Shown here: one piece after another, positions 1 to 23,049 of the stretch
Position numbering within the stretch: the first letter of the stretch is position 1
Layout of the letters: every line of letters begins with the position of its first letter
From: a bacterium
Lineage (GTDB): Bacteria > CLD3 > SB21
Assembly (NCBI GenBank): GCA_013360215.1
Contig: JABWCP010000036.1
Location: forward strand, 1 to 26,461
Length of the DNA: 26,461 bases
Reading direction: 5' to 3'
Notes under the pieces: generated by a model
What the model was told of the DNA's origin: nothing
Databases searched by the model: none
What the model saw: the letters and a program-made list of their open reading frames with translations, nothing else
Made by a program: the position numbers and the translations under genes

Positions 1-275
1 ATTAGCGGCTTAATGGACGGGCGAATGAACTCATCAAAACATTGAGCTGCATGTTGACGAATCATTTCAGCATCTAATCCGCGTAAATACATTTTATTTT
101 GTTTAAATCCGTTTTTTAAATTCGTCGGATGTTTGCACGAATACCGCAGCGTAGCCAATACCAGATCGGAATACGATATAATTTTTTTTTGAAGCAGATA
201 GCGAATGAAGAGCCGCTCGGATGAGTGCCGCGTGATCGTACCGTCAATATCAAAAAAAGCTATACGACGGCTCAC
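1..275 (-). CDS. HAD-superfamily phosphatase, N-terminal part (runs off the window)
   Basis: About 91 codons are visible. The protein begins at a GTG and has a DxDGT-type motif (AFFDIDGTIT) at residues 6-15, the aspartyl-phosphate nucleophile motif of HAD phosphatases. The following residues (RHSSERLFIRYLL) resemble the cap-bearing subfamily IB (SerB-like) hydrolases. The GTG start at 275 overlaps the TGA stop of the upstream CDP-alcohol phosphatidyltransferase (GTGA), so the two are translationally coupled. A phosphatase next to a PgsA-like enzyme could dephosphorylate the phosphatidyl-alcohol-phosphate product, but this is inferred from context only. The C-terminus lies outside the window, so substrate and full domain content cannot be judged. 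Confidence 0.8.
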   Translation of the reverse strand, partial: MSRRIAFFDIDGTITRHSSERLFIRYLLQKKIISYSDLVLATLRYSCKHPTNLKNGFKQNKMYLRGLDAEMIRQHAAQCFDEFIRPSIKPL

Positions 276-919
276 GGTTTATCCTTTACAAAAAACTGTT
301 TCCCCTCAAGTAAAACCGGGATACCTCGCAGGAGACTCACGGCCGTAGTGATAACGGCAAGTATAAGACCTCCGGTATAAGTCAATGATGAAACCCATAG
401 GTATTCCTGTAAATTAGCATCCCGCAGATGCTGCTCTTTAGCCAGTAAAACCAATATCAGATAAGGAAATGTAACGGCTTTGATAACACCATAAAAGGCG
501 CGCATAAACCGGCCTGAAACTAAGAATTTTCCTATTTCAGACTGCATCATTGTGTTTTCCCCAAAAGCCGTTTTGCCGTCGGCCAAGGCCTGGCTACGAA
601 TCGCATCCGTCATAAAACCGCGCGACATCACGATGATCGGTATCCACATCGGTATGATGTCCAGATCGGCAAAGACGATCCAAAAAACATTTTCGACAAT
701 ACGATCACCGGTAATATCAAGTACTCCGCCAAACTGCGTCACTTCATTGCGCTTGCGCGCAACATAACCGTCCAACGCATCCATTACGATAATCAGGATA
801 GCTAGCAAAACAGCCACGATAAGCCACATCGGGCGCTGTGTATAGATCAACACAACCGTCATATAGAGGACACCTATGCGTGCTATAGTGATCGAATTGG
901 CAAGATTTAAAAGTTTCAT
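272..919 (-). CDS. CDP-alcohol phosphatidyltransferase, PgsA-like
   Basis: This 215-residue integral membrane protein carries the complete CDP-alcohol phosphotransferase motif at residues 47-72: D47, D50-G51, A54-R55, G64, D68 and D72, with canonical spacing. Four to six hydrophobic segments surround it. Enzymes of this family use CDP-diacylglycerol or another CDP-alcohol and transfer a phospho-alcohol to a hydroxyl acceptor in the inner membrane. The short single-domain form and the N-terminal NLANSITIARI segment look like phosphatidylglycerophosphate synthase, but phosphatidylinositol-type acceptors cannot be excluded. It is followed, with a 4-base overlap, by a HAD phosphatase. It is separated from the phosphonate cluster by about 600 bases with its own promoter, so it is probably an independent lipid operon. 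Confidence 0.85.
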   Translation of the reverse strand: MKLLNLANSITIARIGVLYMTVVLIYTQRPMWLIVAVLLAILIIVMDALDGYVARKRNEVTQFGGVLDITGDRIVENVFWIVFADLDIIPMWIPIIVMSRGFMTDAIRSQALADGKTAFGENTMMQSEIGKFLVSGRFMRAFYGVIKAVTFPYLILVLLAKEQHLRDANLQEYLWVSSLTYTGGLILAVITTAVSLLRGIPVLLEGKQFFVKDKP

Positions 920-1534: not shown

Positions 1535-2818
1535 TCAGACATTGTTTCCATTGTTGCCGACCGCATTTTCTCGAACCGATTTCACATAACGATTTGCGAT
1601 ACGATAACCGACAAAAAACAAAATCGCATACGATAGAGTTTGCCCCCAAGCTACGCCGTACTCTCCGAATATTGAAATAAATATAAACGTAGCAACTAAC
1701 CCGACCACCCCGCCAACCGCATCACGCATTAAAAATTCAGTCGGTTTACCAAAAATCGATATGATGGTCAGCTGTAAAGCAGACAGTGAAAAGAAAATAT
1801 ATCCGCCAAATACAACCGCCATGATGCCCCACGCATCAGCATACTTCGCCCCTCCCATTATCGGCATAATCCAAGGGCTAAGAATACATAAAATAATCGG
1901 AGGTGGTAACGTAAAAGCCAAATACGTTCGTATGTAATTCTGTCTAACATTAATATCGCGCGTTTGTGAAAGTTTGACTGTCAAAGGATCAGAAAAAGCC
2001 TGAATGTATTGGCGCAGCATTCCCGCTGTTTTGTTGGCTAAACGAAAATTAGCTAATTGCTCCAGCGGTAACATCGCAGGTATGATCAACTGTTCGCCTT
2101 GCTTGAAGCCCAGCCTGAAAAATTTCCTCAGATAAAACGGCCAATATACTTTGACAACCTCCCACATTTTTCCGAGCTGCAGTTCAGAAATACGAGCATA
2201 TTTGAAGTAATCGCGGACATAATATAAGCGGACCAGCAACGTCAGAAACATGGCTATAGTGATGCCGGTAAAATAATGATTCAGTCCGAGCCATAGATAA
2301 AACACAGTCGCAAAAATACGCTCAACGAGATTGCTGGAAGTTTCCAGGAAGGCATCTGTTCCAAAAAGCTGACGGACATTAAAAACAGACGATAAAATAC
2401 CTTCACAAACAGTGAAAAACAGATGCAGCGTACACAAGTATATCACCCACGTGATATTCAGTTCCGGAAATGAAACTTGAAGATCATCTCGCCACAGTGT
2501 ACACATTACTAAAAAAAAACATGACGAAAATAATGCTACAACCATCCGTGTAAAAACCGCCGGCCAAATAATTTCACGCACGGCTTCTTCGATTTTCCCG
2601 TCTTTTAATAATGGCGGCGCTTCGCGTATTTTACGATAGTGCAAGCCCACATCCGCAATGACTTTTACGAAGCTTACAGCCACTTCATACATTGCAATCA
2701 ACGCAAAAATAACTTTTGAAAATTCATATGCAAAGTAGATCATGAAAAGCACACTCAGAAGCCCGACGGAGGAACGTCCAAGCAATATCCGAAAGGACTT
2801 TTTCATCAGTGAGTTCAT
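1535..2818 (-). CDS. Polysaccharide flippase (Wzx/MATE-type, oligosaccharide exporter)
   Basis: This 427-residue, highly hydrophobic protein has about 12 predicted membrane segments and the layout of the MOP-superfamily polysaccharide exporters, which flip lipid-linked glycans across the inner membrane. It begins MNSLMKKSFRILLGRSSV, and aligns along its whole length with the flippase at 13571-14836 (for example FALIAMYE/FALIALYT, KIREAPPLL/VIREAPALM, GFKQGEQL/GFLQGEQL). Its ATG overlaps the TGA of the alcohol dehydrogenase gene (ATGA, 2815-2818), so it is the last gene of the phosphonate operon. The coupling suggests that a phosphonate-bearing glycan or lipid intermediate is the cargo; that is inference. 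Confidence 0.88.
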   Translation of the reverse strand: MNSLMKKSFRILLGRSSVGLLSVLFMIYFAYEFSKVIFALIAMYEVAVSFVKVIADVGLHYRKIREAPPLLKDGKIEEAVREIIWPAVFTRMVVALFSSCFFLVMCTLWRDDLQVSFPELNITWVIYLCTLHLFFTVCEGILSSVFNVRQLFGTDAFLETSSNLVERIFATVFYLWLGLNHYFTGITIAMFLTLLVRLYYVRDYFKYARISELQLGKMWEVVKVYWPFYLRKFFRLGFKQGEQLIIPAMLPLEQLANFRLANKTAGMLRQYIQAFSDPLTVKLSQTRDINVRQNYIRTYLAFTLPPPIILCILSPWIMPIMGGAKYADAWGIMAVVFGGYIFFSLSALQLTIISIFGKPTEFLMRDAVGGVVGLVATFIFISIFGEYGVAWGQTLSYAILFFVGYRIANRYVKSVRENAVGNNGNNV

Positions 2819-3924
2819 GCGACGAGATGCTTCTCGAGGCGGTCAAATAGCGGTTCAACCGGGACTAAACTGTTACCGGCGCGGATATTACCCGTAAGTG
2901 ATTGACGGATCAATGACAAATCTTTTTTGGATAATCCATAATCTGCCGGATGCGTCGACACTCGCAATAATTTCAAAAGATTTCGTACCGCATCGCCGCC
3001 CTGAGCACCAAAAATCGCATTCAAAGCAAAATCTACCTCCGAATGGACGCCGGCCATCGTATCAATAATGTCGGGTAACGTAAAACTGCATGCAATCCCG
3101 TGCGGGGTTCCCTTTTGCGCGGTAACATAGTAAGAAATGGCATGCGCAACCGCGGTTTGAGTATTAGAAAAGGCCAACGCCGTATTCAGACTGCCCCACA
3201 TTTGTCGTGTTCGTAATTCGAGATTGGGCAAATCATCAGCCAACAAAGGCAAAGTAGTCATGATTTCCCGCGCGGCTGTAATCGCATACCGCGTAGAAAT
3301 AGGGTTTGCGTTTTTATTCCAAATGGCTTCCAATGCTTGCGACAAGGCATCCAATGAGGTTTGGACAGTTATATCGCGTGGAAGACTGAGCGTAAGTTCC
3401 GGGTCACAGATACATGCTTCAGCCCAAAGATTCGGCAAATGCAGCGAATATTTTTTCTTTTCCTCCATGTCCCAAACCGTAGCCCATGGTGTCAACTCAC
3501 TGCCTGTGCCGGCCGTCGTAGGAATGGCGATCATGGGTTTCAGTTTATAACCGGATTTAGCACGCGTTCCGCGAATGATGCCTTCTACGATATCAAACTG
3601 ATGCGAGTCATCGTATACCGAAAGCGCTTTTGCGCCGTCCATCACACTTCCTCCGCCGAGCGCGACGATCACATCAAATTCTTTTTCCCACGCCGTAGCA
3701 TACAAATCACGTAGTGCTACAAATGTAGGATTCGGAGGTATCTGATCCAAAACACCGGCGATCTGACCGGTCAAAGATCCAAGTTGATCCAGAATACCTC
3801 GTTTGATAAAGCCCGCTGTCGTCACGAGCAATACACGCCGATTACCGACCCAGCGGTTTATTTCCGCCAATGTACCTGTACCAAAACGGATAGTGACCGG
3901 ATTATAATAAGTAAACGCGTTCAT
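2815..3924 (-). CDS. Iron-type alcohol dehydrogenase, probable phosphonoacetaldehyde reductase
   Basis: This 369-residue protein is a group III (Fe-type) alcohol dehydrogenase. The dinucleotide-binding GGGS motif is at residues 90-93 (ALGGGSVMDGAKA), followed by PTTAGTGSE (135-143). The metal site of the family is Asp, His, His, His; here D192, H261 and H275 are present, but the second ligand position (DALSQALEA) has Gln196 where other family members such as FucO have His. The following IWNKNANPIS stretch is like that of phosphonoacetaldehyde reductases. Its ATG overlaps the cytidylyltransferase stop and its own stop overlaps the flippase start. In a cluster with PEP mutase and decarboxylase but no transaminase, the likely reaction is phosphonoacetaldehyde to 2-hydroxyethylphosphonate with NAD(P)H. 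Substrate is inferred; family is clear. Confidence 0.85.
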   Translation of the reverse strand: MNAFTYYNPVTIRFGTGTLAEINRWVGNRRVLLVTTAGFIKRGILDQLGSLTGQIAGVLDQIPPNPTFVALRDLYATAWEKEFDVIVALGGGSVMDGAKALSVYDDSHQFDIVEGIIRGTRAKSGYKLKPMIAIPTTAGTGSELTPWATVWDMEEKKKYSLHLPNLWAEACICDPELTLSLPRDITVQTSLDALSQALEAIWNKNANPISTRYAITAAREIMTTLPLLADDLPNLELRTRQMWGSLNTALAFSNTQTAVAHAISYYVTAQKGTPHGIACSFTLPDIIDTMAGVHSEVDFALNAIFGAQGGDAVRNLLKLLRVSTHPADYGLSKKDLSLIRQSLTGNIRAGNSLVPVEPLFDRLEKHLVA

Positions 3925-4637
3925 TTGAAAATTTCCTTCGCACGCTCGTAATCCTCAAGAAAATCAATTTCGAGCCATGGTAAATTGCGCGTGGAGCTGC
4001 AATAAATTTGAAAACCTTGATGCGCCATACGCGTAAAGGCATGCGTATCATAGTAATTCAAACCTTCCTCAAACATGATCTTTTCCATGTACGCCAGCGC
4101 GGCTTTAGGATCTTTGATAAACGCAATACCTGTCCACTCTCCCGCCGCTTCGTGAAGCGGAATACCCTTATTGGATTCGATCAACATATGCTCGGCTGTG
4201 ACCCGAACTTTCATCGCTTCCTCATTGACCGGGCCAAAATCAGTAATCAGATCCAGCGCACAATCGTGTTGCAAGGCGTCTGTATAGTTAAGTTTCAAAA
4301 TATCGTTGTGATAAATAATATCCCCATGGAGATAGACGATCGGATCGGCAGCGATCCAGTTTTTTGCAAACCAAAGCGAACCCATGTTGTTGCATTGCTG
4401 ATAAAAAGGATTGGCAATGTAAGTGATATCCCGCCCCAACGTATCCATGATCATTTCTTTTTTGTATCCGACCACGACAGCAATTTCCTGTATACCCATC
4501 GCACGTAGGGCCTTTACGGAACGAAGGAGCAATTCTTCTTCATTGACTTTCAGCAACCCTTTAGGCCGCTCCAAGGTCAACGGATACAAACGGCTGGACA
4601 ATCCGGCCGCAACAATAACAGCTTTGGTAATATTCAT
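3921..4637 (-). CDS. LicC/PntC-like cytidylyltransferase, candidate CTP:phosphonate cytidylyltransferase
   Basis: This 238-residue protein is a single nucleotidyltransferase domain. It has the nucleotide-binding loop AAGLSSRL at residues 10-17, PK at 25-26, a metal Asp in HGDIIY (D106), and a C-terminal LEIDFLEDYERA carrying the second metal region. The NPFYQQCNNMGSLW segment (76-89) resembles choline-phosphate and AEP cytidylyltransferases. I chose ATG 4637 because the GxG loop follows at the usual distance and GGAA lies upstream; a longer frame to 4685 would overlap the neighbouring gene. It is ATGA-coupled to the alcohol dehydrogenase, so it probably makes CMP-2-hydroxyethylphosphonate (or CMP-aminoethylphosphonate). 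It could instead activate a sugar-1-phosphate or choline-phosphate. Confidence 0.82.
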   Translation of the reverse strand: MNITKAVIVAAGLSSRLYPLTLERPKGLLKVNEEELLLRSVKALRAMGIQEIAVVVGYKKEMIMDTLGRDITYIANPFYQQCNNMGSLWFAKNWIAADPIVYLHGDIIYHNDILKLNYTDALQHDCALDLITDFGPVNEEAMKVRVTAEHMLIESNKGIPLHEAAGEWTGIAFIKDPKAALAYMEKIMFEEGLNYYDTHAFTRMAHQGFQIYCSSTRNLPWLEIDFLEDYERAKEIFK

Positions 4638-4654
4638 GAAATAAATTCCGTTGT

Positions 4655-5323
4655 TTATAATGTAAATTCTGCTGCAATCCCCCAACGAAAGCCATAGGGA
4701 TATACAATTTTGACTTTTTGATCTCCGATCTGAGTCTGTGAAAAAAGCGTATATGATAAATAGGGCGATATGTGCAACGAAGGATTCACTTGAATTTTTG
4801 CATTTATCGCTACGTCCGTATAGAAACCATGACCTGATAGGCTTTTCGCATCAAAATAGCCGTCATCCCAACCATAATAGATTTTTGTTTTTGATCGCAG
4901 TATCCAATGATAGTGCGCTGAAAGGCCTCCAAAAACTCTTATGAGATTGGTGCGATACAAGCAATACTCACCCGTCACCACTATATCCGGTACAAAGTAA
5001 TTGTGCTCCGAACGACGCTCGCCTGCAAGAAGAGGTTCTGAATCAATACGTTTTCGATAGTAATAATAAATGCTTGGGCCAAAGCGAAGATGAAAACCAT
5101 TGGAAATCGGAATCGTATTAAAAATTGCAAAGCCTATGCCATACACTGGCTTCGCTGATTCGCGAAGCGCAGGGTGACGCTTCTTATAAAAGCCTAATAG
5201 GTCTTTATTCTCGCTGAACGTCATGCATCCATAACTAATTCGAATAATCGGCTTGGTCATTTCTTGTGTATATATTATCAATGGGAAGAAGAACCAAACC
5301 ACAATGCAAACGAATATGTTCAT
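4655..5323 (-). CDS. Predicted outer-membrane beta-barrel protein, unknown function
   Basis: This 222-residue protein has an N-terminal hydrophobic export signal (about residues 1-20, ending ..IIYTQE). After that come alternating polar/aromatic strands rich in Tyr, Phe and Gly (for example GIGFAIFNTIPISNGFHLRFG and YLSYTLFSQTQIG) and a C-terminal WGIAAEFTL like a last barrel strand. This fits a small 8-10 strand outer-membrane barrel. No catalytic motif is visible and I do not recognise the family. Its ATG overlaps the TGA of the preceding barrel gene (ATGA, 5320-5323), and it ends 17 bases before the cytidylyltransferase. It belongs to a two-gene module that splits the phosphonate enzymes. 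It may act in surface export or may be unrelated cargo. Confidence 0.7.
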   Translation of the reverse strand: MNIFVCIVVWFFFPLIIYTQEMTKPIIRISYGCMTFSENKDLLGFYKKRHPALRESAKPVYGIGFAIFNTIPISNGFHLRFGPSIYYYYRKRIDSEPLLAGERRSEHNYFVPDIVVTGEYCLYRTNLIRVFGGLSAHYHWILRSKTKIYYGWDDGYFDAKSLSGHGFYTDVAINAKIQVNPSLHISPYLSYTLFSQTQIGDQKVKIVYPYGFRWGIAAEFTL

Positions 5324-6069
5324 TGGCTATCTCCATTATGAAAAGGTAAGCCTTGATGTTTACTTAGTAATATCTCAATTCCAAAAGCCCAGTAAATCCC
5401 AACAGCTGGGAATCGCACAGCTGATGTTTCCGAATACAAATCATCATTTTCTTTCAAAACAGCAGTAGACATAAATGCAATTTGACCTGCACCAACAACC
5501 GACACGGAGTTACTTATAGAGTGACGTAACTTTAATGCTCCCGATCCAAAATAGCCATCGCCGCGCATATTGTTAAATGTGGAATAACCGTACCCATGAC
5601 CATGCCCATAACGTATTTTGGAGACCCAAATATTGGCATAAGAAAACTCGATACCCGCCCCAAGAGATATGTATTTGGTCTGGAGAAACTGATATTCAGC
5701 ACTCAACGATGTTAAAAACATTGGATAATGATGCCACAAATAGAGTTTAGCATAAGTGCCATTCATCAGTCTCTTTTTGCCGCCGGTATCTATTTTATCT
5801 TTTGTGTAATGCAGACCAAATGATATTCCGTATCGCCATCGCTGCTTGTGCACCACTTCGTAAGTAAGTAATGCGTTATAACCCATCGGATTACCAAAAC
5901 TTTTCACATACTTGTCCGAACCAATATTGTCACCCAATGGCATGACGCTTATGCTGGTTTTCAAAATCAGTTGTTGCTCGATCTGGTGACTTGTATCAGC
6001 TTGAGCCCAAAGCGAGACAGTAATAAAGCAAAGTGTAAATATATAATAACGTACATTCAAAAAATACAC
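5320..6069 (-). CDS. Predicted outer-membrane beta-barrel protein, unknown function
   Basis: This 249-residue protein starts with GTG at 6069, chosen because AGGAGG lies 6 bases upstream. A signal peptide is clear at residues 1-24 (hydrophobic YYIFTLCFITVSLWAQA, probable cleavage at AQA-D). The mature part has repeated amphipathic strands with aromatic residues (RYGISFGLHYTKD, FLTSLSAEYQFLQ, LGAGIEFSYANIWV, RFPAVGIYWAFGIEILL), typical of small outer-membrane barrels. It is translationally coupled to the next barrel gene. The two proteins share architecture but no obvious long sequence similarity. The function is unknown. It sits 247 bases after the decarboxylase gene, in a spacer that carries a gene remnant. 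Confidence 0.7.
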   Translation of the reverse strand: MYFLNVRYYIFTLCFITVSLWAQADTSHQIEQQLILKTSISVMPLGDNIGSDKYVKSFGNPMGYNALLTYEVVHKQRWRYGISFGLHYTKDKIDTGGKKRLMNGTYAKLYLWHHYPMFLTSLSAEYQFLQTKYISLGAGIEFSYANIWVSKIRYGHGHGYGYSTFNNMRGDGYFGSGALKLRHSISNSVSVVGAGQIAFMSTAVLKENDDLYSETSAVRFPAVGIYWAFGIEILLSKHQGLPFHNGDSQ

Positions 6070-6141
6070 CTCTTACCTCCTCGTCTCTTCGCACAACCTG
6101 TATTCACGAAGGGAAATCGATAAATTAGTTGATTGTTCAAC

Positions 6142-6240
6142 CTAATCACGCGTTGGAAAACTAATGCCAACTGGAGCCACAAATTCGCCGTCAGAGAGCA
6201 CGGTCAGGTTCTTGCAATTAATTTGTTTTTCTAATCGACA
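6142..6240 (-). pseudogene. Short C-terminal gene remnant in the phosphonate cluster spacer
   Basis: The 247-base spacer between the decarboxylase and the barrel genes holds a minus-strand frame of 32 codons, bounded by TAA (6241-6243) and TAG (6142-6144). It reads CRLEKQINCKNLTVLSDGEF followed by VAPVGISFPTRD. The codon use and composition are protein-like, yet no start codon or ribosome site is present. It looks like the last part of a gene whose 5' end was lost, which would mark an insertion or deletion junction. The fragment is short, so chance cannot be excluded. Confidence 0.35.
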
Positions 6241-6316
6241 TTAATCATTAAAGATTGTTGTTATTCAACGACCATTTTCAACATTACTTGATTGTAATGC
6301 GAACGTATTATCGCTA

Positions 6317-7447
6317 TCATGATCTCAAAAACGCCATCAACCGTTCTTTGACTTGGTATGGTTTCACCTTAGGACGTCCCAGTTCCGGCGGCGACCCTTT
6401 TGATATTCTCATATACAAAAAGGTCAATCCACCATTTGTCTTCCATTCTTTGATCCGCTGTTCCAGTTCATCCAGCGAATGAACGTGTATCGCATGGGTG
6501 TATCCTACTGATGCAGCAAGGTCAACAAAATGAATCATATGCGAAACCGTCGCCTGGCCTCCGGTAGAATCGTGTACGTTATTATCGAGTAAGATATGGC
6601 ACAAATTAGAAGGACTGTAATACGCATTGGTTGCGATAGAACCCATACGCATCAGGAAAGCACCATCCCCGTCAATTGCGATGATTTTTTTCTGCGGTTT
6701 GGCGAGCGCTAAACCTAACCCCAAATTACTGATGCAACCCATTGATCCGACCATGTACAAATTATTCGACGCATCTTCGACTTCATACAGTTCACGCCCT
6801 GTTTTACCCGTTGTGGCCAAGTGAACGGTGTGCTGATCTTTGACGGCATTGATGCGCGCTAAAGCTTCCGTACGTTTGGGTTTTTGTTCATCGGTAGTTT
6901 TAACTATTCTACGAACATTCGCAGGTGACTTCAGCGTCTGCGGTTTTAACTCTTCTTTTTCAAACGTTCCTTTTTTTACAACAAAGAAAAACGTTTTGTT
7001 CTGTTTGATGATATTGTCGGCGCGCTCGATTTGTTTTACCGCCTCATTATTGTCAGATGCGAGATACTCCCACGGTATTTCCATCAAATCGAGCATTTTA
7101 GTCGTGATCGGCCCCATCAGCTCGTGCTGCGGTTCATCACTTAATCCCGGTTCGCCCCGCAAACTGACAATACCTAAAACGGGTAATTGGAATGTCCAGG
7201 TCAGCGATGTAAGCGGTGACGTTGCATTGGTCAGACCGGAATTTTGACAGAGGAATACCGATTTACGACCACCGAGATATGCGCCGGCACATGCCGCTAC
7301 AGCGTCACCCTCATTGGTGGCCATCACATAATCGCATTCGTTAATCGCATAATTGATCAGATCTTTTAAGAACGAACATGGAACGCCGCTGTAAAAGTCA
7401 TAGCCTTTCCTTTTCAATTCTTCGCCGAAAACGCGTGTACTGAGCAT
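6317..7447 (-). CDS. ppd: Phosphonopyruvate decarboxylase
   Basis: This 376-residue thiamine-diphosphate enzyme decarboxylates phosphonopyruvate to phosphonoacetaldehyde, the step that makes the PEP mutase reaction thermodynamically favourable. The N-terminal pyrimidine-binding domain has the cofactor-activating Glu in ATNEGDAVAA (E46). The C-terminal domain has the ThDP/Mg motif from GDG (260-262) to NN (289-290), followed by VHDSTGGQ, which is typical of phosphonopyruvate and sulfopyruvate decarboxylases. Both domains are in one chain, as in Fom2/AepY. The start at ATG 7447 lies one base after the PEP mutase stop and behind a GGGAG site; a longer in-frame start at 7489 would overlap PEP mutase and is unlikely. 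Sulfopyruvate decarboxylase is excluded by the PEP mutase neighbour. Confidence 0.93.
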   Translation of the reverse strand: MLSTRVFGEELKRKGYDFYSGVPCSFLKDLINYAINECDYVMATNEGDAVAACAGAYLGGRKSVFLCQNSGLTNATSPLTSLTWTFQLPVLGIVSLRGEPGLSDEPQHELMGPITTKMLDLMEIPWEYLASDNNEAVKQIERADNIIKQNKTFFFVVKKGTFEKEELKPQTLKSPANVRRIVKTTDEQKPKRTEALARINAVKDQHTVHLATTGKTGRELYEVEDASNNLYMVGSMGCISNLGLGLALAKPQKKIIAIDGDGAFLMRMGSIATNAYYSPSNLCHILLDNNVHDSTGGQATVSHMIHFVDLAASVGYTHAIHVHSLDELEQRIKEWKTNGGLTFLYMRISKGSPPELGRPKVKPYQVKERLMAFLRS

Positions 7448-7448
7448 A

Positions 7449-9044
7449 TTACATATCTCCCGCTTTTTGAAGTTTGACCACGTCATCAATGTCCAGCCAT
7501 GAGCCGCGTATGTATTTTACAGCTATGGTCGTGGTTTTAGCGATTTCATTAAAAAGATCGGCCATACGCAGATTCTTAAATTCCGGATTTTTGGATAATG
7601 TTTCCATGGCTTGTTTGACCGCAGCGGCACCATGCGTATTGACCTTCCACAGACCGACAAACTCACCGTGAATTTCTTCCGATTTCAGATTGGTGGACAT
7701 ACGGACAAATTTAACTGAATCCTGAAACAGGTTTTTGGAGTGCGCACGCTCGGCCCGCACATAATCTTTATATCCGGGTGTCATTTGTACGTCACTATCC
7801 ACCACGATCGTAACATCGTTATTGTCGTTGAGCAAATCATTTAAAATATAACTTTTAAAGACAATGTCACCGTAGGCAATAACCGTGTTTTCTTTAAGTT
7901 CGTTTTTCGCCAGATACAAGCTGTACAACTCCTTCGTGGAGGCATACGCTTCATTATCGATCGTTTTGATATTGGTCGCTTTGATCGTATCTTTTTTATA
8001 TCCGCGAACCACGGTAATATCTTTGATCCCGACGCGATTAAATTCGTCCGTAGTACGTGCCAGCAATGTTTTGCCTTGGACCTTGAGCAACACCTTCGGT
8101 ATATCTTTGGTGAGTTCTTTCAGATTGTTACCTTCCGAAGCGGCTAAAATAATCGAATTGACATTTTTACCGGATGCGGGGAGGTATTTATCTTCGGCCG
8201 CTTCAAGTTCATCTGCATTTTGCAGGCGAAATATTTCATTCACCGAGGCCACTTTATCTTCAACATTGATCAACGATTGCTCTTCAAAAATTCGTTTGGA
8301 AGTGGCCTGCATCGCTGTGATTGAGGTACGAATATTATGATTCGCCCAGATGACCATACTGATACCGATCTGCCGATATAAATCCGTCGGCGTTGAATAA
8401 TACTTCGTCGGCACAATAACGACCGGGAGTCGGCCGGCCCACTCTTTCATAAACGCTTCGATATCCGATGGATTGGATTTTTTGCTGTGCACGAGCACGG
8501 CATCTGCACCCGCCTGACGATACGCTTCGCCGCGACGTAGCGCTTCATCCAGTCCCCATCCTGCAATGAAGGCTTCGATACGCGCTACGATAACAAAATC
8601 ATCGTCTTTCTGGCTGTCGCGCCCGGCCTTGATTTTGCCGCAAAACTCATCCACATCCGCCAACGGTTGCGCTTCGCCGGAAATAAAAGAATTGGTTTTG
8701 GGAAATAATTTGTCTTCGATACAGACGCCGGCTACATTTCGTTGTTCCAGTTTTTGTACCAAGCGTCGCATATTATTAAAATTTCCATATCCCGTATCGC
8801 CGTCCAACAGCATAGGAATCGTCGTGGCATCGCTGATGTATTCGCATACATCCAACACCTGCGTCCAGGAAGCTTCATTATTATCACGCACGCCCAGCGA
8901 TGCCGATATGGACAAACCGCTGCCCCAAATCCCCTTAAATCCCGCTTCTTCTACGATTTTAGCTGATAATCCGTTATGCGCTTCCATGATGAACTCCAGT
9001 TCTTTGGAGCGGATCATGTTTTTAAGTAGTGTCGTTTTATTCAT
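7449..9044 (-). CDS. pepM: Phosphoenolpyruvate mutase fused to a C-terminal nucleotidyltransferase domain
   Basis: This 531-residue protein has two domains. Residues 1-275 are phosphoenolpyruvate mutase of the isocitrate-lyase superfamily: DGDTGYG (81-87) and the diagnostic [10 protein letters not shown] (110-119), the EDK-x5-NS motif that separates true PEP mutases from lyases. It converts PEP to phosphonopyruvate, making the C-P bond. Residues 295-531 are a nucleotidyltransferase domain: [13 protein letters not shown] (316-317), YGDIVF with metal D392, and WLDIDD near the end. The loop lacks the usual GxGxR arginine. Such fusions are known among bacterial PEP mutases, and the domain presumably activates the final phosphonate with CTP. 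The start has AGGAAC upstream. It is followed one base later by the decarboxylase. Confidence 0.95.
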
Positions 9045-9089
9045 GGCATGTTCCTATAACAAGTGTGGGTTAATATTTATTAATAAAGC

Positions 9090-10262
9090 TTATTTGTGGT
9101 TTGAAGGCATTAAATAATACTGCGTAATCCAATAACATACACTTAAAAAGCCGTACAACGTTATAAAATAAAATGATTCCGTAAACATGTCCATTCCTAA
9201 ACCGATACCCATTAAGATCATATTCATATTCCATCGGGTACCGCTGAATAATCGAAGTTTACGATTCAAATCCGAGGTGTCATATATAGACCGACCGTAG
9301 CGACGATTGTATCGGATCGTAATAGGTTTCATTATAAAAAAAAGAAAAACGAGCGCTACCGCATTTACCATAGGCCATGACCAAACCATGCCGGCGCCGA
9401 GATGATAAGCTATAGCGACATACCACAACGGATGATAAATCGAATGAGAAACCTTGTCCAACCAATGACCTAATCGGCTTGACTGAAATGTCAAACGCGC
9501 CAAAACCCCATCCCACGCATCACATATCATCGTGAATGCGCTCAATGCCAAGCCGAGCGCCCATTGTCCCTGCGCGTACGCCATAAAGGCGCCCGCCGCG
9601 ATAAAAAGATAACCGATAGTAATCTGATTGGGAGTCAGAGGTACCAAAGGTATTATGCGCATGAGCCTAGCAACGATGCGCACATAAACGTACGTATATA
9701 AAACATCCATGACACCTTTGACCGACGCGTCAAAAAATAATTTTTCTGCACGGCGCACCTCCTCCTTCATACGCATATCCGCCGCAATCGCTGGTACATA
9801 AACGCGCAGAGAGAGAATATGCGGGTCTATATCTTCCGGACGAATTTGGACTGAGCAGGACTTCTGAATATCAGATTCACCATGCCCACCGTTCAAAACG
9901 GAAGAATGAATCCAAGCGGCCAAGAGCCGGTCATCGGTCCCAATATATGCAGCATTTTCTTGGGATCTCATAAGTTCGGAAAAAATCCGTGTATCGTATG
10001 CATGCGTACTTCGTAACCATAGTACGCTATCATGTCGCGATATGATAGGTTGAATATCTGCATCTTGAGATTTTCCTGCTTCTATACGATGGATTACTAC
10101 GTCTTTTATGATTGGTAAATCGAAAGTACTCGATGCTGTTCCAACGAGAATTACTTCTTCACACCCAAATTTTTGTAACTGACGTATGGCACGTGTAAGC
10201 GAGGTCAGGCTCCAAACTTTATGCTTCGGCATTCCATCCGTTATGTCAATACAACCCAGCAT
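9090..10262 (-). CDS. Nucleotidyltransferase-like/CDP-alcohol phosphotransferase fusion with a D-to-H change in the motif
   Basis: This 390-residue protein joins a soluble N-terminal region (about 1-180) to a membrane CDP-alcohol phosphotransferase domain (about 185-385). The N-terminal part keeps an alternating alpha/beta pattern (SLTRAIRQLQKFGCEEVILVG) seen in nucleotidyltransferases but has no GxGxR loop or PK. The phosphotransferase motif is D248, D251-G252, A255-R256, G265, D269 and then H273 where the family has its fourth Asp, normally the catalytic base or a metal ligand. The start has AAGGAACC upstream; the gene follows its partner fusion after 8 bases and precedes pepM by 45 bases. 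The layout resembles the bifunctional inositol-phosphate cytidylyltransferase/DIPP synthase. It probably transfers or binds a CMP-activated phosphonate; acceptor unknown. Confidence 0.8.
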   Translation of the reverse strand: MLGCIDITDGMPKHKVWSLTSLTRAIRQLQKFGCEEVILVGTASSTFDLPIIKDVVIHRIEAGKSQDADIQPIISRHDSVLWLRSTHAYDTRIFSELMRSQENAAYIGTDDRLLAAWIHSSVLNGGHGESDIQKSCSVQIRPEDIDPHILSLRVYVPAIAADMRMKEEVRRAEKLFFDASVKGVMDVLYTYVYVRIVARLMRIIPLVPLTPNQITIGYLFIAAGAFMAYAQGQWALGLALSAFTMICDAWDGVLARLTFQSSRLGHWLDKVSHSIYHPLWYVAIAYHLGAGMVWSWPMVNAVALVFLFFIMKPITIRYNRRYGRSIYDTSDLNRKLRLFSGTRWNMNMILMGIGLGMDMFTESFYFITLYGFLSVCYWITQYYLMPSNHK

Positions 10263-10270
10263 GAGGTTCC

Positions 10271-11530
10271 TTAATTAGTCCGTTCTTTTTTTGGCTTTTC
10301 AACAATAACGCGCCCAAAATGAAAAACAACATACACCATCATCCAGCAGGCATACGCGATGTATGTTGCTACCGGCTTACCGATAACAAGCCCGACCATC
10401 ATCATATAGATGAAAATATTACGCCGCGGTAAAAAAAGACGTGCATAGCCATCCAACGGCGAGAAGTCATGAATTCGCATTTTATGATAATAACGAAAAG
10501 CACGCGCGGCTAACTTGTCAAGAATATGACCGCCAACTACAGCCGAAATCAAATAAAACGTCGTCTGCCACGAATCTAAAAATCCCGCTACTTTGAGCCC
10601 GATACCAAAGCCCACATAATACAGATATATATTGATACGATCAGCCACATGATCCAGCTTATCGCCTTGATCGCTGGTGCGATATGTAAAACGCGCTAAT
10701 TTACCGTCACATACATCGAGAATACTGACCACGATAGCATGCGCGATACCCCACGTTAATAAACCAAAAGCAAATAGCGGCGCCACTGTAAAAGCAAAAA
10801 GTATGCTTGTATAGGTAATTTGGTTGGGAGTGATATGCGTCTTCGCTATCCATTTAACCAATACTTTTGACAATACTTTGTAAAAATACTTCGCTACAAC
10901 ATCAATTGCGCCATAATGCGTGACTTCAAATAAGTACGCTTCCGCTTCCGACGCTGCTCTTTTATCGTGCACTTCAAATGCATAAGGGTGGATAGACTTA
11001 CGCAAATTGCGCATATAAACCATAGTCCGAGCTACATCAACAACGCTAATTTTCCTATTTTCAGCTAATGCCGCCGCCAATACTCCGACATCATTGCAGG
11101 AAACATCCAAATTTTGGAGCGCATTTGCGTCTAGACGCAGCAATCCCGGCATTTTCTTTTGCGAGTTAGCAAACGTCGTATTGCTTTGGGCTTGAATAGC
11201 CTGATCTATCAATGCCTCCTGATAAATCGCATTTCCCTGAAGCAACACGAAGGTGTTGTCCTGAATTTCAGGCACCTCTTTTAATGCATCTATCAATAAT
11301 TTAGGCGAGGGGTGTATTCGATATGTTATAGGCTTAAACCGGCCAAAATCTTCTCTGAACTTAACTCGCCTGTCATCGTTGGTTATAATAACCGTCTGAG
11401 TTATTCCGTACAAAGCCAGTAATCGCAAATTGCGCTCTAACAGCGAAATAGAAAAAACAGTAATCTCAGATTGATCTGAACGGGCATCAATGACCGCCAG
11501 TCGTTGCTCGTTTTGGTTTTGCTTATTCAT
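10271..11530 (-). CDS. Nucleotidyltransferase-like/CDP-alcohol phosphotransferase fusion with an intact motif
   Basis: This 419-residue protein has a soluble N-terminal region (about 1-200) and a membrane CDP-alcohol phosphotransferase domain (about 205-410). The domain motif is complete: D272, D275-G276, A279-R280, G289, D293 and D297. The N-terminal part follows a nucleotidyltransferase fold pattern (RNLRLLALYGITQTVIIT; then FVLLQGNAIY at the usual metal-site position) but lacks the GxGxR loop, lacks PK and has Asn for the metal Asp, so it is probably not a working cytidylyltransferase. It is paralogous in architecture to the next gene. The two may form a heterodimer, one active and one divergent, that attaches a CMP-activated phosphonate to a lipid or sugar. 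No Shine-Dalgarno site is visible before ATG 11530. Confidence 0.82.
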   Translation of the reverse strand: MNKQNQNEQRLAVIDARSDQSEITVFSISLLERNLRLLALYGITQTVIITNDDRRVKFREDFGRFKPITYRIHPSPKLLIDALKEVPEIQDNTFVLLQGNAIYQEALIDQAIQAQSNTTFANSQKKMPGLLRLDANALQNLDVSCNDVGVLAAALAENRKISVVDVARTMVYMRNLRKSIHPYAFEVHDKRAASEAEAYLFEVTHYGAIDVVAKYFYKVLSKVLVKWIAKTHITPNQITYTSILFAFTVAPLFAFGLLTWGIAHAIVVSILDVCDGKLARFTYRTSDQGDKLDHVADRINIYLYYVGFGIGLKVAGFLDSWQTTFYLISAVVGGHILDKLAARAFRYYHKMRIHDFSPLDGYARLFLPRRNIFIYMMMVGLVIGKPVATYIAYACWMMVYVVFHFGRVIVEKPKKERTN

Positions 11531-11545
11531 CGGGGTAAAATATAA

Positions 11546-12136
11546 TTATTTTTTAAACATCGTGTTTTCGATAATTTCACACAGTATGTGACCGATCATA
11601 ATGTGCGACTCCTGGATACGCGGCGTATCGTTAGAAGGCACATTGATAAGATAATCACACACATCCTTCATCTTGCCCCCCGTCGTGCCGGTCATTCCCA
11701 CAGCTATCATATTTTTTTGTTTTGCCGCTAGCATAGCATTCAAGATGTTTTTTGAGTTCCCTGAAGTTGATAATCCGATCAGAACGTCGCCCGATTGCCC
11801 CATGCCCTCGACTAACCTTGAAAACACCACATCGTAGCTATAATCATTGGCAATGGCGGTGAGGTAGGACGAGTTTACGTGCAACGCCTCTGCCGGCAAA
11901 GGTCTGCGGTCCATATAAAACCGACCACTCAATTCGGCGGCCAGATGCTGTGCATCGGCGGCACTTCCCCCGTTTCCGCAAAACAGGATTTTTTTCTCTT
12001 CATTCAGTGCCTTGATCATGATCTCAGCCGTTTTTGCTATAGTATCCAATAATACCGGCTGCGTCAATATTTCTTCTTTGACACGGATCGAACTGCGAAT
12101 GACATCTGAAATTTTTGTCAAATTCTGGTATTCCAT
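11546..12136 (-). CDS. gmhA: SIS-domain phosphoheptose isomerase, GmhA-like
   Basis: This 196-residue protein is a single SIS domain with the GmhA signatures CGNGGSAADAQHLAAELSGRF, GLSTSGNSKNI (sugar-phosphate binding) and ESHIMIGHILCEII (catalytic Glu/His region). GmhA isomerises sedoheptulose 7-phosphate to D-glycero-manno-heptose 7-phosphate in the cytoplasm. The start is ATG 12136 because AGAGG lies 6 bases upstream; the longer frame to 12214 has no ribosome site and adds residues foreign to the family. It is the first gene of the phosphonate operon, 15 bases before the first fusion gene. No gmhB or hldE is present in the window, so a heptose acceptor for the phosphonate is possible but unproven. 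DiaA-like roles are a weaker alternative. Confidence 0.88.
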   Translation of the reverse strand: MEYQNLTKISDVIRSSIRVKEEILTQPVLLDTIAKTAEIMIKALNEEKKILFCGNGGSAADAQHLAAELSGRFYMDRRPLPAEALHVNSSYLTAIANDYSYDVVFSRLVEGMGQSGDVLIGLSTSGNSKNILNAMLAAKQKNMIAVGMTGTTGGKMKDVCDYLINVPSNDTPRIQESHIMIGHILCEIIENTMFKK

Positions 12137-12229
12137 TTTACCTCTATAATAAAACCATGGTATCGTGAGGATGAGTGTCGAACGGATATGCGCATTAGAT
12201 AAAGTCCTGCGCATAAAAAGTGCGATGGA

Positions 12230-12325: not shown

Positions 12326-12355
12326 AAAATCTTGGCTTGATTAAGCCAAGATTTT
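12326..12355 (-). terminator. Intrinsic terminator between the nucleotidyltransferase gene and the phosphonate operon
   Basis: AAAATCTTGGCTT (12326-12338), a GATT loop and AAGCCAAGATTTT (12343-12355) make a perfect 13-base-pair stem. Read on the minus strand the stem is followed by TTTATTTAATTTTTC. It lies 26 bases after the stop at 12381 and separates that gene from the gmhA-led operon. Confidence 0.88.
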
Positions 12356-12380: not shown

Positions 12381-13211
12381 TTATCCGACGTTTTTCATCA
12401 TCAGTGGTTGATACAAACCATTGGTACGCGCATACAATCCGGCAGGATTGGTGTGCAACATGATTGTTTGTTTCATCAGTCCGGACATTTCGATTTCTAA
12501 GTGATGCAGGTCTTCAAAAAAATCTAACTCACCGTATTTGAAATCCGTGACATCCACCCAACCAACATTTTCGCCCATATCAATCATGTGCTGGATAGCA
12601 CGCACAAAAAACGCATTGCGCGTAACGTCTTTGATCATGGCCGAATCCAAAGCTTGCTTAAAAGCTTCGATACCGGAATTACGAAACGCACGGAGACCGA
12701 TAGATTCGCCGTTAGCAGCATAGTTATCGATTTCTTTGCTGATTTCTATCACGCGATCACCATTGATACGAACCTTCATATCTTCGTTGTCGTAAGCCGG
12801 GTTTTTGTGAATGGCTATACTGACATTCATGTCTTTTTGTGCAATGACTTTGGATAATGCTTTACGTTCAAATACGTTATCGCCATTGATAACAACAAAT
12901 TCCGTCGTCATTTCATCTTTGGCTAACCAAAGCGAAAAAAGATTATTGGTTGTTGCGTAATCTTTGTTGTTGACCATTTTGAGACGTATATCAAGGCCGT
13001 GAATAGCGATATAACGTTCGGCGTAATTTTTCAATTTCTCAATTTCAAAACCACCGATGATAACCACATCTTTGACACCGCAGCTTGCAAGTGTAACCAG
13101 CTGGTATTCCAGAATGGTTGTACCTTTAACATCCACCAACGTTTTAGGCGTTTCAGCCGTAAGAGGAAGCAACCGCTTGCCTTGTCCTGCTGCTAAGATG
13201 AATGCTTTCAT
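12381..13211 (-). CDS. NTP transferase (sugar-phosphate or choline-phosphate type nucleotidyltransferase)
   Basis: This 276-residue protein has a full nucleotidyltransferase N-terminus: MKAFILAAGQGKRLLPLT with the GxGxR loop at residues 9-13, PK at 22-23, then NNKDYATTNNLFSLWLA, as in LicC-type choline-phosphate and related cytidylyltransferases, and the metal Asp in VVINGDNVFE. A C-terminal extension of about 40 residues follows the KYGELDFFEDL region. The start is ATG 13211, since GGAG lies 8-9 bases upstream and the glycine-rich loop follows immediately; the upstream in-frame Met at 13274 lies next to the predicted sigma-54 transcription start. It is flanked by that promoter and a perfect terminator, so it is probably monocistronic. 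Substrate unknown; it may supply a CMP or UDP/dTDP-activated unit to either neighbouring operon. Confidence 0.85.
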   Translation of the reverse strand: MKAFILAAGQGKRLLPLTAETPKTLVDVKGTTILEYQLVTLASCGVKDVVIIGGFEIEKLKNYAERYIAIHGLDIRLKMVNNKDYATTNNLFSLWLAKDEMTTEFVVINGDNVFERKALSKVIAQKDMNVSIAIHKNPAYDNEDMKVRINGDRVIEISKEIDNYAANGESIGLRAFRNSGIEAFKQALDSAMIKDVTRNAFFVRAIQHMIDMGENVGWVDVTDFKYGELDFFEDLHHLEIEMSGLMKQTIMLHTNPAGLYARTNGLYQPLMMKNVG

Positions 13212-13570: not shown

Positions 13571-14836
13571 TTACAAGGTTGTGTGCACCGAGTCTTGATT
13601 TCGTAAATATTTTTGAGAGATGTGGTATCCCGTGATATAAAGCGTAAGATAAGTGATGACCTGACCCCATGCGAGGCCATATTCTCCGTAAAACCATATC
13701 AGTGCAAATGTAGCCGACAGACCGGTTATACTGCCGATGACATCACGTTTGAGCGCTTCCTGAGGTTGACCCAAAATAGTAACAACCGTAAATTGAAAAA
13801 TAGAAAGCGCGGATATAGAGTAAGAAACAAAAAGAATGGATAAAATAGGCCAATAGTCGGCATATTTTTCTCCGCCGCCATACTTCATGATCCACGGACT
13901 CAGAATCGCTAAAATCAGAGGTACCGGAATCGTAAACATATAAAATGTTTTTTGGTACTGCTGCCTGACAGATATATCGCGCGTTCGGGATAATCGGACG
14001 GATAATGGGTCCGAAAAAGCTTCTAAATACGCCTTCATGTATTTGGAAAAACGTTTAGCTAAATTGAAATTGGCTACTTGCTCCAATGGTAACATAAGGG
14101 CAACCAGCAATTGCTCGCCTTGTAAAAATCCAAAACGGAAAAAACGCCGCACGTACATGGGAAAATAATATTTAAGCATGGGCCGCATTGTTTTCATCCG
14201 AACCTCATGGGGATACCACGCCAATAACTGCCGAACAAACCAGAAACGCAAAAGGGCTATAGCGCCTTGCGCCAAAAGAACACCAGTAAAATAATGATTC
14301 ATCCCCGCATAGATGTACAAAATCGTAGCCAGTATATTTTCCAAGGTCTGCGCCGAACCATTGAGAATGGAATTAAGCCCAAATTGGCGACGAATTTGGA
14401 ATAGCTGTATGGATATCGTGCTCAGGCATTCAAAAAAAATCGAAAACCCCGCGATCGTGAGAATATATGGCGCCGAAAGATCGGGAAAAGTTTGGGTAAA
14501 ATGTGCGCGTATAAAAAAGAAAAATAAAAAAATCACAATCAAAACGATCAGCGATGCCGCAATACGTAAAAAAACAGACGGAAAAATGATCGTACGCATT
14601 GCTTCGTCCGTTTTTCCGGCATTCATCAGTGCCGGCGCTTCGCGTATCACTTTGTAGGATAGACCTAAATCAATCACTACTTGCGCCAGAGTACTCAGCG
14701 TGGTGTACAATGCAATCAAAGCAAAAGTGGCTTTATCCAGCACATACGCAAAATAAACCGTAAAAAGTACCGACACAAAAGACACACTCATGCGTCCGGC
14801 CAAAATCCGCAGTGATTGTTCAAGTAATTTATTCAC
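13571..14836 (-). CDS. Polysaccharide flippase (Wzx/MATE-type), paralogue of the gene at 1535-2818
   Basis: This 421-residue protein is very hydrophobic with about 12 membrane segments, a MOP-superfamily exporter expected to flip lipid-linked oligosaccharide. I chose GTG 14836 as start because the protein then begins MNKLLEQSLRIL and aligns residue for residue with MNSLMKKSFRIL of the other flippase; a TTG at 14842 is the alternative. Similarity to that paralogue is continuous, including GEQLLVALMLPLEQVANF against GEQLIIPAMLPLEQLANF. It is the last gene of the glycosyltransferase operon, 42 bases after the preceding stop. No clear terminator is visible after it. It probably exports the glycan made by the adjacent transferases. 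Confidence 0.87.
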   Translation of the reverse strand: MNKLLEQSLRILAGRMSVSFVSVLFTVYFAYVLDKATFALIALYTTLSTLAQVVIDLGLSYKVIREAPALMNAGKTDEAMRTIIFPSVFLRIAASLIVLIVIFLFFFFIRAHFTQTFPDLSAPYILTIAGFSIFFECLSTISIQLFQIRRQFGLNSILNGSAQTLENILATILYIYAGMNHYFTGVLLAQGAIALLRFWFVRQLLAWYPHEVRMKTMRPMLKYYFPMYVRRFFRFGFLQGEQLLVALMLPLEQVANFNLAKRFSKYMKAYLEAFSDPLSVRLSRTRDISVRQQYQKTFYMFTIPVPLILAILSPWIMKYGGGEKYADYWPILSILFVSYSISALSIFQFTVVTILGQPQEALKRDVIGSITGLSATFALIWFYGEYGLAWGQVITYLTLYITGYHISQKYLRNQDSVHTTL

Positions 14837-14878
14837 ATGCAATAAACCTTATCCCAGATCGTTTTTTTACACATGTTT

Positions 14879-21011: not shown

Positions 21012-23049
21012 ATGATTAATTTTTTTCGTTCTATCTTCTCCTCAAAACCCAAGCCTCCGGTAGCACCAATAAAGCCACATCGTGTAACGCATATCGGTAA
21101 ATCACTTACGGACGATTATTATTGGTTGCGCGACAAAGAAAATCCGGAAGTTATTGCCTATCTGGAAGCTGAAAATGTATATACAGACGCCTTGATGAAA
21201 CCTACTGAGGCTTTGCAAGATACGCTGTATCGCGAAATGCTCAGCCGCATTCAGGAGGACGACCGATCCGTCCCTGAACAAATCGGTGAGTTTCTATATT
21301 ATTACCGGACGGAGAAGGACAAGCAGTATAAAATCTATTGCCGTAAAAAAAACGGCGAGGAAAACGAAGCCGTACTACTTGACCTCAACACTCTGGCCAG
21401 TCATACACCCTATCTTGCACTCGGCGCCTACCGTGTCAGTCCGGATCACCGTTGGCTCGCATTTACTATAGATCATGACGGATCAGAACAATTCACACTT
21501 TACATCAAAAATCTGGAAACCGGAGAATTATCCCCCGAACACATTCCGAATACGTATTACGGTTTGGAGTGGGCCAACGACAGTGCAACGATTTTTTATA
21601 CGACGCTTGATCCAAGCCTTCGCCCGCATCGGGTGTATCGGCACAGTATCGGCTCAGAATTAACATCCGATCAACTTGTGTACGAAGAACCCGATGAACG
21701 GTACTATCTTGACCTTACCAAATCGCGCAGCGGGCGTTTTCTTTTGATAACATTGGCCAGTAAAACAACAACCGAAGTACATTTTTTGAATGCGGATCAT
21801 CCCGACAAACCGTTTCAAGTATTTCAGGAACGTGTGCAGGGTCATGAGTATAACGTCGAACATTGGGAGGATCGCTTTTTTATCACGACCAATGATCAGG
21901 CTGTTAATTTTCGTCTGATGGAAACACCTGCAGATCGGACAAATAAACAAAATTGGCGCGAAGTCATTGCTCCGGGATTTTATAGTTATTCATACACGTA
22001 CCAACGGCCTCAAAAGCATAACCATTCGCACGCAACCCGATCGAACTGAACATACCGTGCTTTTTCCGGAGCCCGTGTATAGTTATACGCCTTTGCGCAA
22101 TCCGGATTACAACGCATCGTTTTTTCGTTTGAACTATACTTCGCTTGTAACGCCGTCCACGGTGATGGATTACGACATTAAGAAAAGAGAACTAACGATA
22201 CGTAAACGGGAAGAAGTGGCAGGTTATGATGCCAACGACTATTCCAGCGAACGCATTTTGGTACAAGCGACGGATGGCACGTTAATTCCCATGTCCATCG
22301 TTTACAAAAAAGATCGCTTACCGAACAAACCGACACCGGCACTATTATATGGTTACGGTTCGTACGGCATTTGTATTGATCCGCAATTTGCTTCGCATCG
22401 CATCAGTTTACTGGACCGCGGTTTTGTTTTTGCCATAGCTCATATTCGCGGCGGTGATGATCTCGGGCGCAAATGGTACGAAGACGGAAAATTTCTTCAC
22501 AAAAAAAATACATTCACCGATTTTATCGCCTGCGCAAGGCATCTGATTTCGCAAGGCTATACGACACCCGCTCAATTAGCCATTATGGGCGGAAGCGCCG
22601 GCGGTCTTCTGATGGGCGCCGTGATCAATATGCAACCCGATCTCTTCGGAGCGGTCGTAGCCCATGTTCCTTTCGTGGATGTGGTCAATACCATGCTTGA
22701 TCCCAACCTGCCTCTGACCATCACCGAATACGAAGAATGGGGCAACCCCAATGATCCCGCTTATTTTGACTATATGATGTCTTACGCGCCTTACGAAAAC
22801 GTTAAACGTCAAGCGTACCCTCATATCCTCGTAACGGCCGGACTGAATGATCCGCGCGTAAGTTATTGGGAGCCGGCCAAGTGGGTTGCCAAACTGCGGC
22901 GTATGAAAACCGATCGCAACGACCTTCTAATGCGCACCCACATGGATTTTGGCCATAGCGGCGCTTCGGGTCGTTATGATTATTTGTTAGAGATCGCTTT
23001 CGATTATGCTTTTATTATTGAAAAAACCAAACCATCCGGACGTTCTTGA
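21012..23049 (+). pseudogene. ptrB: Oligopeptidase B (S9A serine peptidase), broken by an internal deletion
   Basis: Two frames together encode nearly all of an oligopeptidase B. The first (21012-22049) carries the N-terminal segment DYYWLRDKENPEVIAYLE and the propeller up to NWREVIAP. The second picks up at DFIVIHTRTNGL (about 21978) and continues to 23049 with the catalytic Ser in MGGSAGGLLMG, the Asp region NDPRVSYWEPAKWVAKLR and the catalytic His in FGHSGASGRY. Oligopeptidase B has about 13 residues between these points, so roughly 38 bases seem to be missing at 21971-21977, shifting the frame. Restoring them gives about 691 residues, near the 686 of E. coli OpdB. The family cleaves peptides after basic residues. 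It is a pseudogene unless the gap is an assembly error. Confidence 0.85.

Follow-up and report, generated by a model that had tools for sequence, protein, structure and literature searches.

A putative phosphonate cassette with a predicted 2-hydroxyethylphosphonate cytidylyltransferase in a bacterial surface-glycan locus

Background and question

Most of the bacterial capacity to make phosphonates is thought to serve the decoration of cell surfaces, and the steps past activation with cytidine monophosphate (CMP) are unknown (PMC6697681). The DNA analysed here (the window) is the entire 26,461-nt contig C36 of a 3.7-Mb genome, whose minus strand carries all genes from 20301 down to 272, among them a phosphoenolpyruvate (PEP) mutase fused to a nucleotidyltransferase (NT) domain. 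The locus raises the question of whether a route from PEP to a transferred phosphonate is encoded in one place, and, if so, which phosphonate is activated. We consider it likely that a native surface-glycan locus has taken in a cassette whose enzymes make 2-hydroxyethylphosphonate (HEP) and convert it to CMP-HEP; transfer by a CDP-alcohol phosphotransferase (CDP-AP) may follow.

Genes of the phosphonate cassette

The route from PEP to an activated phosphonate is assigned to four genes:

7449..9044, minus strand: PepM-NT, PEP mutase with an NTP_transf_3-like domain (TIGR02320, 396.6 bits, cut-off 319.55)
6317..7447, minus strand: Ppd, phosphonopyruvate decarboxylase (TIGR03297, 405.2 bits, cut-off 312.5)
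3921..4637, minus strand: NT2, stand-alone LicC/PntC-like nucleotidyltransferase, predicted CTP:2-hydroxyethylphosphonate cytidylyltransferase (1jyk, 3.6e-16; 6pd1, 7.1e-8)
2815..3924, minus strand: Fe-ADH, iron-type alcohol dehydrogenase, predicted to reduce phosphonoacetaldehyde to HEP (PF00465; TIGR03405; ATGA overlap with NT2)

The sequence itself shows the gene order, the family assignments, and the catalytic residues, and the identities proposed in a preliminary description of this DNA were borne out. The mutase carries the EDKxxxxxNS motif and a C-terminal NTP_transf_3 domain, the decarboxylase scores over its family cut-off, the NT2 stop overlaps the Fe-ADH start, and two CDP-AP fusions on the same strand match PF01066 above its cut-off. 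PepM matched the Mytilus PEP mutase (1m1b) at 1.8e-143; a misannotated methylisocitrate lyase was ruled out by the EDK motif and the TIGR02320 score. The ATG of Ppd at 7447 directly follows the PepM stop, with a longer open reading frame (ORF) running from an upstream TTG at 7489. The NT2 ORF likewise reaches a TTG at 4685 (3921-4685), and the ATG at 4637 is the likelier start.

The substrate pocket of NT2

The PDB structures nearest to NT2 are those of LicC (1jyk) and PntC (6pd1). In the PntC of Treponema denticola (Tde-PntC), alanine mutants of Arg15, Lys25, and Lys153 retain less than 10% activity, and Glu104 and Glu196 are positioned for hydrogen bonds to the amine of 2-aminoethylphosphonate (AEP) (PMC6697681). 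Alignment to the Tde-PntC sequence, from which positions 104 and 196 are numbered throughout, revealed that NT2 retains the equivalents of Arg15, Lys25, Asp106, and Lys153, with GLSSR standing at the GxG(T/S)R motif, and that Glu104 is replaced by His and Glu196 by Thr. Since both amine-contacting acids are replaced, NT2 is not classed with the AEP-type PntC enzymes on these residues.

The same His104/Thr196 pair was found in 6/6 NT2 orthologs linked to Fe-ADH, the window copy included, whereas all 27 aligned NTs from AEP-transaminase loci have Glu or Asp at both positions. Four further NT loci, with no transaminase on their contigs, are acidic at both positions too, and Arg15, Lys25, and Asp106 are constant throughout the aligned NTs. 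A profile search of this genome found no AEP transaminase over the cut-off. Because the amine contacts are replaced, Fe-ADH stands in the place of the transaminase, and the genome holds no detected transaminase, NT2 is predicted to make CMP-HEP, not CMP-AEP, and we strongly infer that HEP is the pathway product and the substrate of NT2. The route from PEP to a CMP-phosphonate put forward in the preliminary description is thus supported, with HEP rather than AEP as the predicted substrate. Two pocket positions that track cluster chemistry (amine or hydroxyl) provide a testable rule for predicting the activated phosphonate from sequence. No close NT2 ortholog was found in a plasmid collection, where the best match reached 32.6%.

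A related arrangement was observed in a Chloroflexota metagenome-assembled genome (MAG; L102, 11624-13744), in which a PntC-like NT is fused to a methylphosphonate synthase (6b9s, 3.1e-141), an enzyme of HEP, between PepM-NT and Ppd/Fe-ADH. The fused NT has Tyr104/Thr196, and the fusion suggests a CMP-activated methyl- or hydroxyethylphosphonate.

Recurrence and origin of the cassette

PepM-NT fusions, which make up about one third of the PEP mutases in PMC6697681, are widespread in Bacillota, Bacteroidota, Spirochaetota, Bdellovibrionota, Pseudomonadota, Verrucomicrobiota, Nitrospirota, and others, in agreement with that study. Neighbouring genes were located by tblastn in the DNA of 80 fusion loci from named genomes (53-70% identical), fetched up to 10 kb to each side; an AEP transaminase was present in 54 of these loci, and an Fe-ADH in 4. 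The neighbourhood search that the preliminary description had called for recovered the order PepM-NT, Ppd, NT2, and Fe-ADH in five other genomes: an uncultured Bacillus MAG (L053), Cohnella fermenti (L056), Bacillus ndiopicus (L064), and two genomes of another small phylum (L047 and L142). The cassette is therefore beyond chance, because four genes recur in order in other phyla. In L053 a PF01066 CDP-AP gene directly follows Fe-ADH, and this five-gene cassette (PepM-NT, Ppd, NT2, Fe-ADH, CDP-AP) constitutes a small gene set covering the whole route.

The Fe-ADH-linked NT2 orthologs form one clade (100/97), within which the window NT2 is placed among the Bacillota copies (99/97). In the comparison set for the host phylum (nine genomes, two families), PepM was absent from the eight other genomes. 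Horizontal acquisition of the cassette is the most likely explanation of these sequence relationships, because NT2 groups with Bacillota, to which the host phylum is unrelated, and PepM is missing from the eight other genomes. PepM-like matches in the phylum relatives were rejected as PEP mutases, all being under the cut-off.

The nucleotidyltransferase domain fused to PepM

Counting the domain fused to the mutase as a second cytidylyltransferase proved not to be justified. In more than 80 PepM fusions, the NT domain reads AAS(R/Q/K)GxxL...PK with (S/A)YGD, versus the usual AAGxG(S/T)RL...PK with (E/D/H)xD. The window copy has SEGNNL and lacks the catalytic Arg of GxG(T/S)R. Among the fusions compared, the position of the catalytic Arg of PntC is occupied by Arg only in L053; nearly all of them retain Lys25 and Asp106. 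Since the Arg required by PntC is lost, the fused domain is not counted as a cytidylyltransferase, and its motifs do not justify assuming activity on AEP or HEP. The absent Arg questions the view of PepM-NT fusions as ordinary cytidylyltransferases. In the window, the variant-signature domain forms the C-terminal half of PepM-NT (7449-8160).

CDP-alcohol phosphotransferases and the predicted transcription unit

The transfer step and the surface-glycan setting depend on a second group of features:

10271..11530, minus strand: CDPAPa, NT-like pseudo-domain (about residues 1-205) with CDP-alcohol phosphotransferase (PF01066, 1.1e-11)
9090..10262, minus strand: CDPAPb, NT-like/CDP-alcohol phosphotransferase fusion (PF01066, 2.4e-10)
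272..919, minus strand: CDPAP3, PgsA-like CDP-alcohol phosphotransferase (PF01066, 8.8e-19)
1535..2818, minus strand: Wzx1, polysaccharide flippase overlapping the end of Fe-ADH (PF01943, 6.4e-15)
11546..12214, minus strand: SIS/GmhA-like isomerase, opening the predicted unit (TIGR00441, 213.0 bits, cut-off 209.45)
12326..12355, minus strand: terminator-like hairpin, 13 pairs and a T run (consensus scan only)

The hairpin at 12355-12326 is strong and suggests that the transcription unit starts at the SIS gene, apart from the upstream glycan genes. After it, the order of transcription would be SIS/GmhA, CDPAPa, CDPAPb, PepM-NT, Ppd, two secreted ORFs (OM2 and OM1), NT2, Fe-ADH, Wzx1, and CDPAP3. 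The position of SIS, CDPAPa, and CDPAPb downstream of the hairpin, together with the cassette, counts in favour of the route proposed below.

The family signature DxxDGxxARx8GxxxDxxxD is complete in CDPAPa (DVCDGKLARx8GxxxDxxxD), which is a plausible best candidate for the phosphonyl transferase on this motif. The N-terminal domains of CDPAPa and CDPAPb lack the GxGxR...PK nucleotide-binding loop, the NT profile match (96.2%) beginning after the loop, and the nucleotide-binding signature of the bifunctional enzyme IPCT-DIPPS is absent from them. A structure model of CDPAPa was used for overall architecture only, its confidence being low (mean predicted local distance difference test score, pLDDT, 59). 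At that confidence, the model matched IPCT-DIPPS (4mnd) with Z 19.2 and a root-mean-square deviation of 8.4 over 355 residues, and its N-terminal domain matched PntC (6pd2) with Z 16.8 over 181 residues.

Of the 80 PepM-NT loci, a phylogenetically redundant set, 34 contain CDP-AP signatures in their fetched DNA. The association is far above chance placement, because a genome holds only a handful of CDP-AP genes. At L147:6837-7880, beside an AEP transaminase and PepM-NT, one 469-aa frame carries both a canonical NT and a CDP-AP signature, and perhaps combines activation and transfer in a single protein. Many phylum-specific CDP-AP paralogs have the G and the third and fourth Asp of the signature replaced, for example DSVDGKLARLTVRLSKTAGIIEHATS (L042, L043, L044, L046, L051, L052, all from genomes of the same family).

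Proposed mechanism and alternatives

In the route that we favour, PepM would convert PEP to phosphonopyruvate, Ppd would decarboxylate it to phosphonoacetaldehyde, and Fe-ADH, substituting for the AEP transaminase usual at this point, would reduce the aldehyde to HEP. Reduction of phosphonoacetaldehyde to HEP by Fe-ADHs of other pathways is established. NT2 would then couple HEP with CMP from CTP, and a CDP-AP, most likely CDPAPa, would use CMP-HEP as donor and place its hydroxyethylphosphonyl group on an alcohol of a lipid-linked glycan or lipid precursor; export of this precursor would fall to Wzx1. The acceptor and the final product are inferred; a glycan acceptor is somewhat favoured, and for transfer by CDPAPa itself the chances are about even. 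A more elaborate version, in which a HEP-specific LicC/PntC-like class (His104/Thr196) feeds CMP-HEP to a pseudo-NT/CDP-AP fusion, which would form the phosphonodiester bonds of a surface polymer in this small, poorly known phylum, while the NT fused to PepM is a conserved variant with another role, is offered tentatively and is rather doubtful.

Several observations weigh against the favoured route, which is read from sequence. The best NCBIfam model for Fe-ADH, by far, is TIGR03405 (PsrA/Phn_Fe-ADH), at 389.6 bits under an equivalog cut-off of 423.7, and the enzyme is classed as a relative, not a member, of that family; the Fe-ADH copies of the Bacillota cassettes fall under the cut-off as well. 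Fe-ADH also has Gln in DALSH, at a likely metal-ligand position, versus His in 4/6 aligned Fe-ADHs (L047 has Gln too). The six His/Thr NT2s form a single clade, so that the change arose once and its covariation with Fe-ADH does not represent six independent events, and we know of no solved HEP-bound PntC that would confirm the reading of the pocket. At the transfer step, the last signature Asp of CDPAPb is His (DAWDGVLARLTFQSSRLGHWLDKVSH), and CDPAPa and CDPAPb fall in a phylum-specific paralog group (93/93), apart from the PepM-linked CDP-APs of other phyla. The proposal in the preliminary description that one operon spans PEP to transfer therefore stands as far as the CMP-phosphonate, with the catalytic residues of NT2 kept, and is weakened for the CDP-AP fusions by the paralogs in PepM-free relatives, the His of CDPAPb, and the missing nucleotide-binding loop.

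The most serious alternative, with a probability not far short of even, holds that the CDP-AP fusions are native to a phosphodiester-linked surface polymer and use ordinary CDP-alcohols, that the phosphonate cassette only happens to share their unit, and that CMP-HEP is transferred by an enzyme encoded elsewhere. Relatives of the same family that lack PepM have SIS, a Wzx flippase, CDPAP3 (63-79% identical to the window copy), and several NT-like/CDP-AP fusions in the same arrangement, and since the paralog group of CDPAPa and CDPAPb occurs without PepM, their donor may be another CDP-alcohol. Against this, the two proteins have diverged from every relative's copy (full-length identity of at most about 30%), they stand directly before PepM in the unit, and CDP-AP signatures recur next to PepM-NT in several phyla. 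It is unlikely that the NT fused to PepM is the working cytidylyltransferase and NT2 has another role: the fused domain is conserved over many phyla with its Lys25 and Asp106 equivalents, and some AEP-transaminase loci have no other canonical NT in the fetched DNA, but the Arg15 equivalent, whose change to Ala leaves Tde-PntC with under 10% activity, is gone in almost all fusions, and the fused signature is the same whether the cluster has an AEP transaminase or an Fe-ADH, unlike the NT2 pocket, which differs between the two.

Two further readings are very improbable. Activation of AEP or another amine phosphonate by NT2, as in characterised PntC, would fit its family and its full set of catalytic residues, but conflicts with the replacement of both amine-contacting acids and with a genome in which Fe-ADH takes the place of an undetected AEP transaminase. 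A diffusible phosphonate natural product made through transient cytidylylation has a precedent in fosfomycin biosynthesis, where the product of Fom1 is CMP-HEP (as cited in PMC6697681); the window holds no further tailoring enzymes, and the neighbours of the cassette are flippases, glycosyltransferases, and CDP-APs.

Relation to known systems

The closest characterised system is the PntC pathway of Treponema denticola (Tde1415) and Atopobium rimae (Ari1348), which shares with the window PepM, Ppd, a PF12804 LicC-like cytidylyltransferase with the catalytic residues of NT2, and a surface-glycan context (PMC6697681). The window differs from it in having Fe-ADH for the AEP transaminase, His/Thr for Glu104/Glu196, and a separate NT of variant signature fused to PepM. 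As summarised in PMC5987646 after Yu et al. 2013, the phosphonolipid clusters of Burkholderia and symbiotic Nostoc likewise group a CDP-alcohol phosphatidyltransferase, an NTP transferase, pepM, and ppd; in that account they carry an AEP transaminase and a 2-oxoglutarate Fe(II) oxygenase, in contrast to the Fe-ADH and the CDP-AP fusions of another subfamily found here. Fom1 resembles NT2 in its product, but its cytidylyltransferase is an N-terminal PF01467 domain, whereas NT2 is a stand-alone PF12804/PF00483 protein in a surface-glycan context. IPCT-DIPPS (4mnd) and AF2299 (4o6m), the best whole-length matches of the low-confidence CDPAPa model, also join an NT-like N-terminal domain to a CDP-alcohol phosphotransferase; unlike CDPAPa and CDPAPb, IPCT-DIPPS is bifunctional. 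The cassettes of L056, L064, and L053 have the four genes in window order, with NT2 44-61% identical, but Ppd and NT2 are not separated by OM ORFs, and a CDP-AP signature was seen only in L053, where the protein is short and not fused to an NT.

The overall route is already known, since CMP activation (PMC6697681) and the presence of a CDP-AP and an NTP transferase in pepM clusters (PMC5987646, after Yu 2013) have been published, as far as these accounts describe them. What is new is the pocket pair, His/Thr versus Glu/Asp, that tracks Fe-ADH versus AEP transaminase; a partial literature search found no paper on a HEP-type PF12804 enzyme.

Surrounding genes and minor observations

Three neighbouring ORFs complete the description of the locus:

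5320..6069, minus strand: OM2, secreted ORF inside the cassette, beta-barrel-like by inspection only (no Pfam match)
4655..5323, minus strand: OM1, secreted beta-barrel-like ORF, weakly similar to OM2 (BLASTP E=6e-4; no Pfam match)
12381..13211, minus strand: NT3, stand-alone nucleotidyltransferase with a sugar-type INGD motif, not NT2-like (PF00483, 1.6e-12)

OM1 and OM2 (4655-6069) are unrelated, outer-membrane-like ORFs that are missing from the other copies of the cassette; no OM2 homolog was found in the eight other genomes of the phylum. NT3, which aligns with Asn/Val at positions 104/196, lies on the upstream side of the SIS gene in a glycan cluster with a second flippase, glycosyltransferases, and an asparagine-synthase-like gene. 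The stretch from SIS to Fe-ADH is bracketed by two paralogous flippase genes, 1535-2818 and 13571-14842, which form 72% nucleotide repeats 12 kb apart. Rfam and tRNA scans of the window gave no match. A prolyl oligopeptidase frame at 21012-23049 is broken into overlapping ORFs (21012-22049 and 21967-23049), likely by a frameshift or an assembly error. At the other end, a HAD phosphatase gene is split over contigs C36 and C52 (window 1-271; L042:2-343), and the two contigs therefore probably abut; beyond its half of the HAD gene, C52 carries a LarA-like gene and three further CDP-AP genes.

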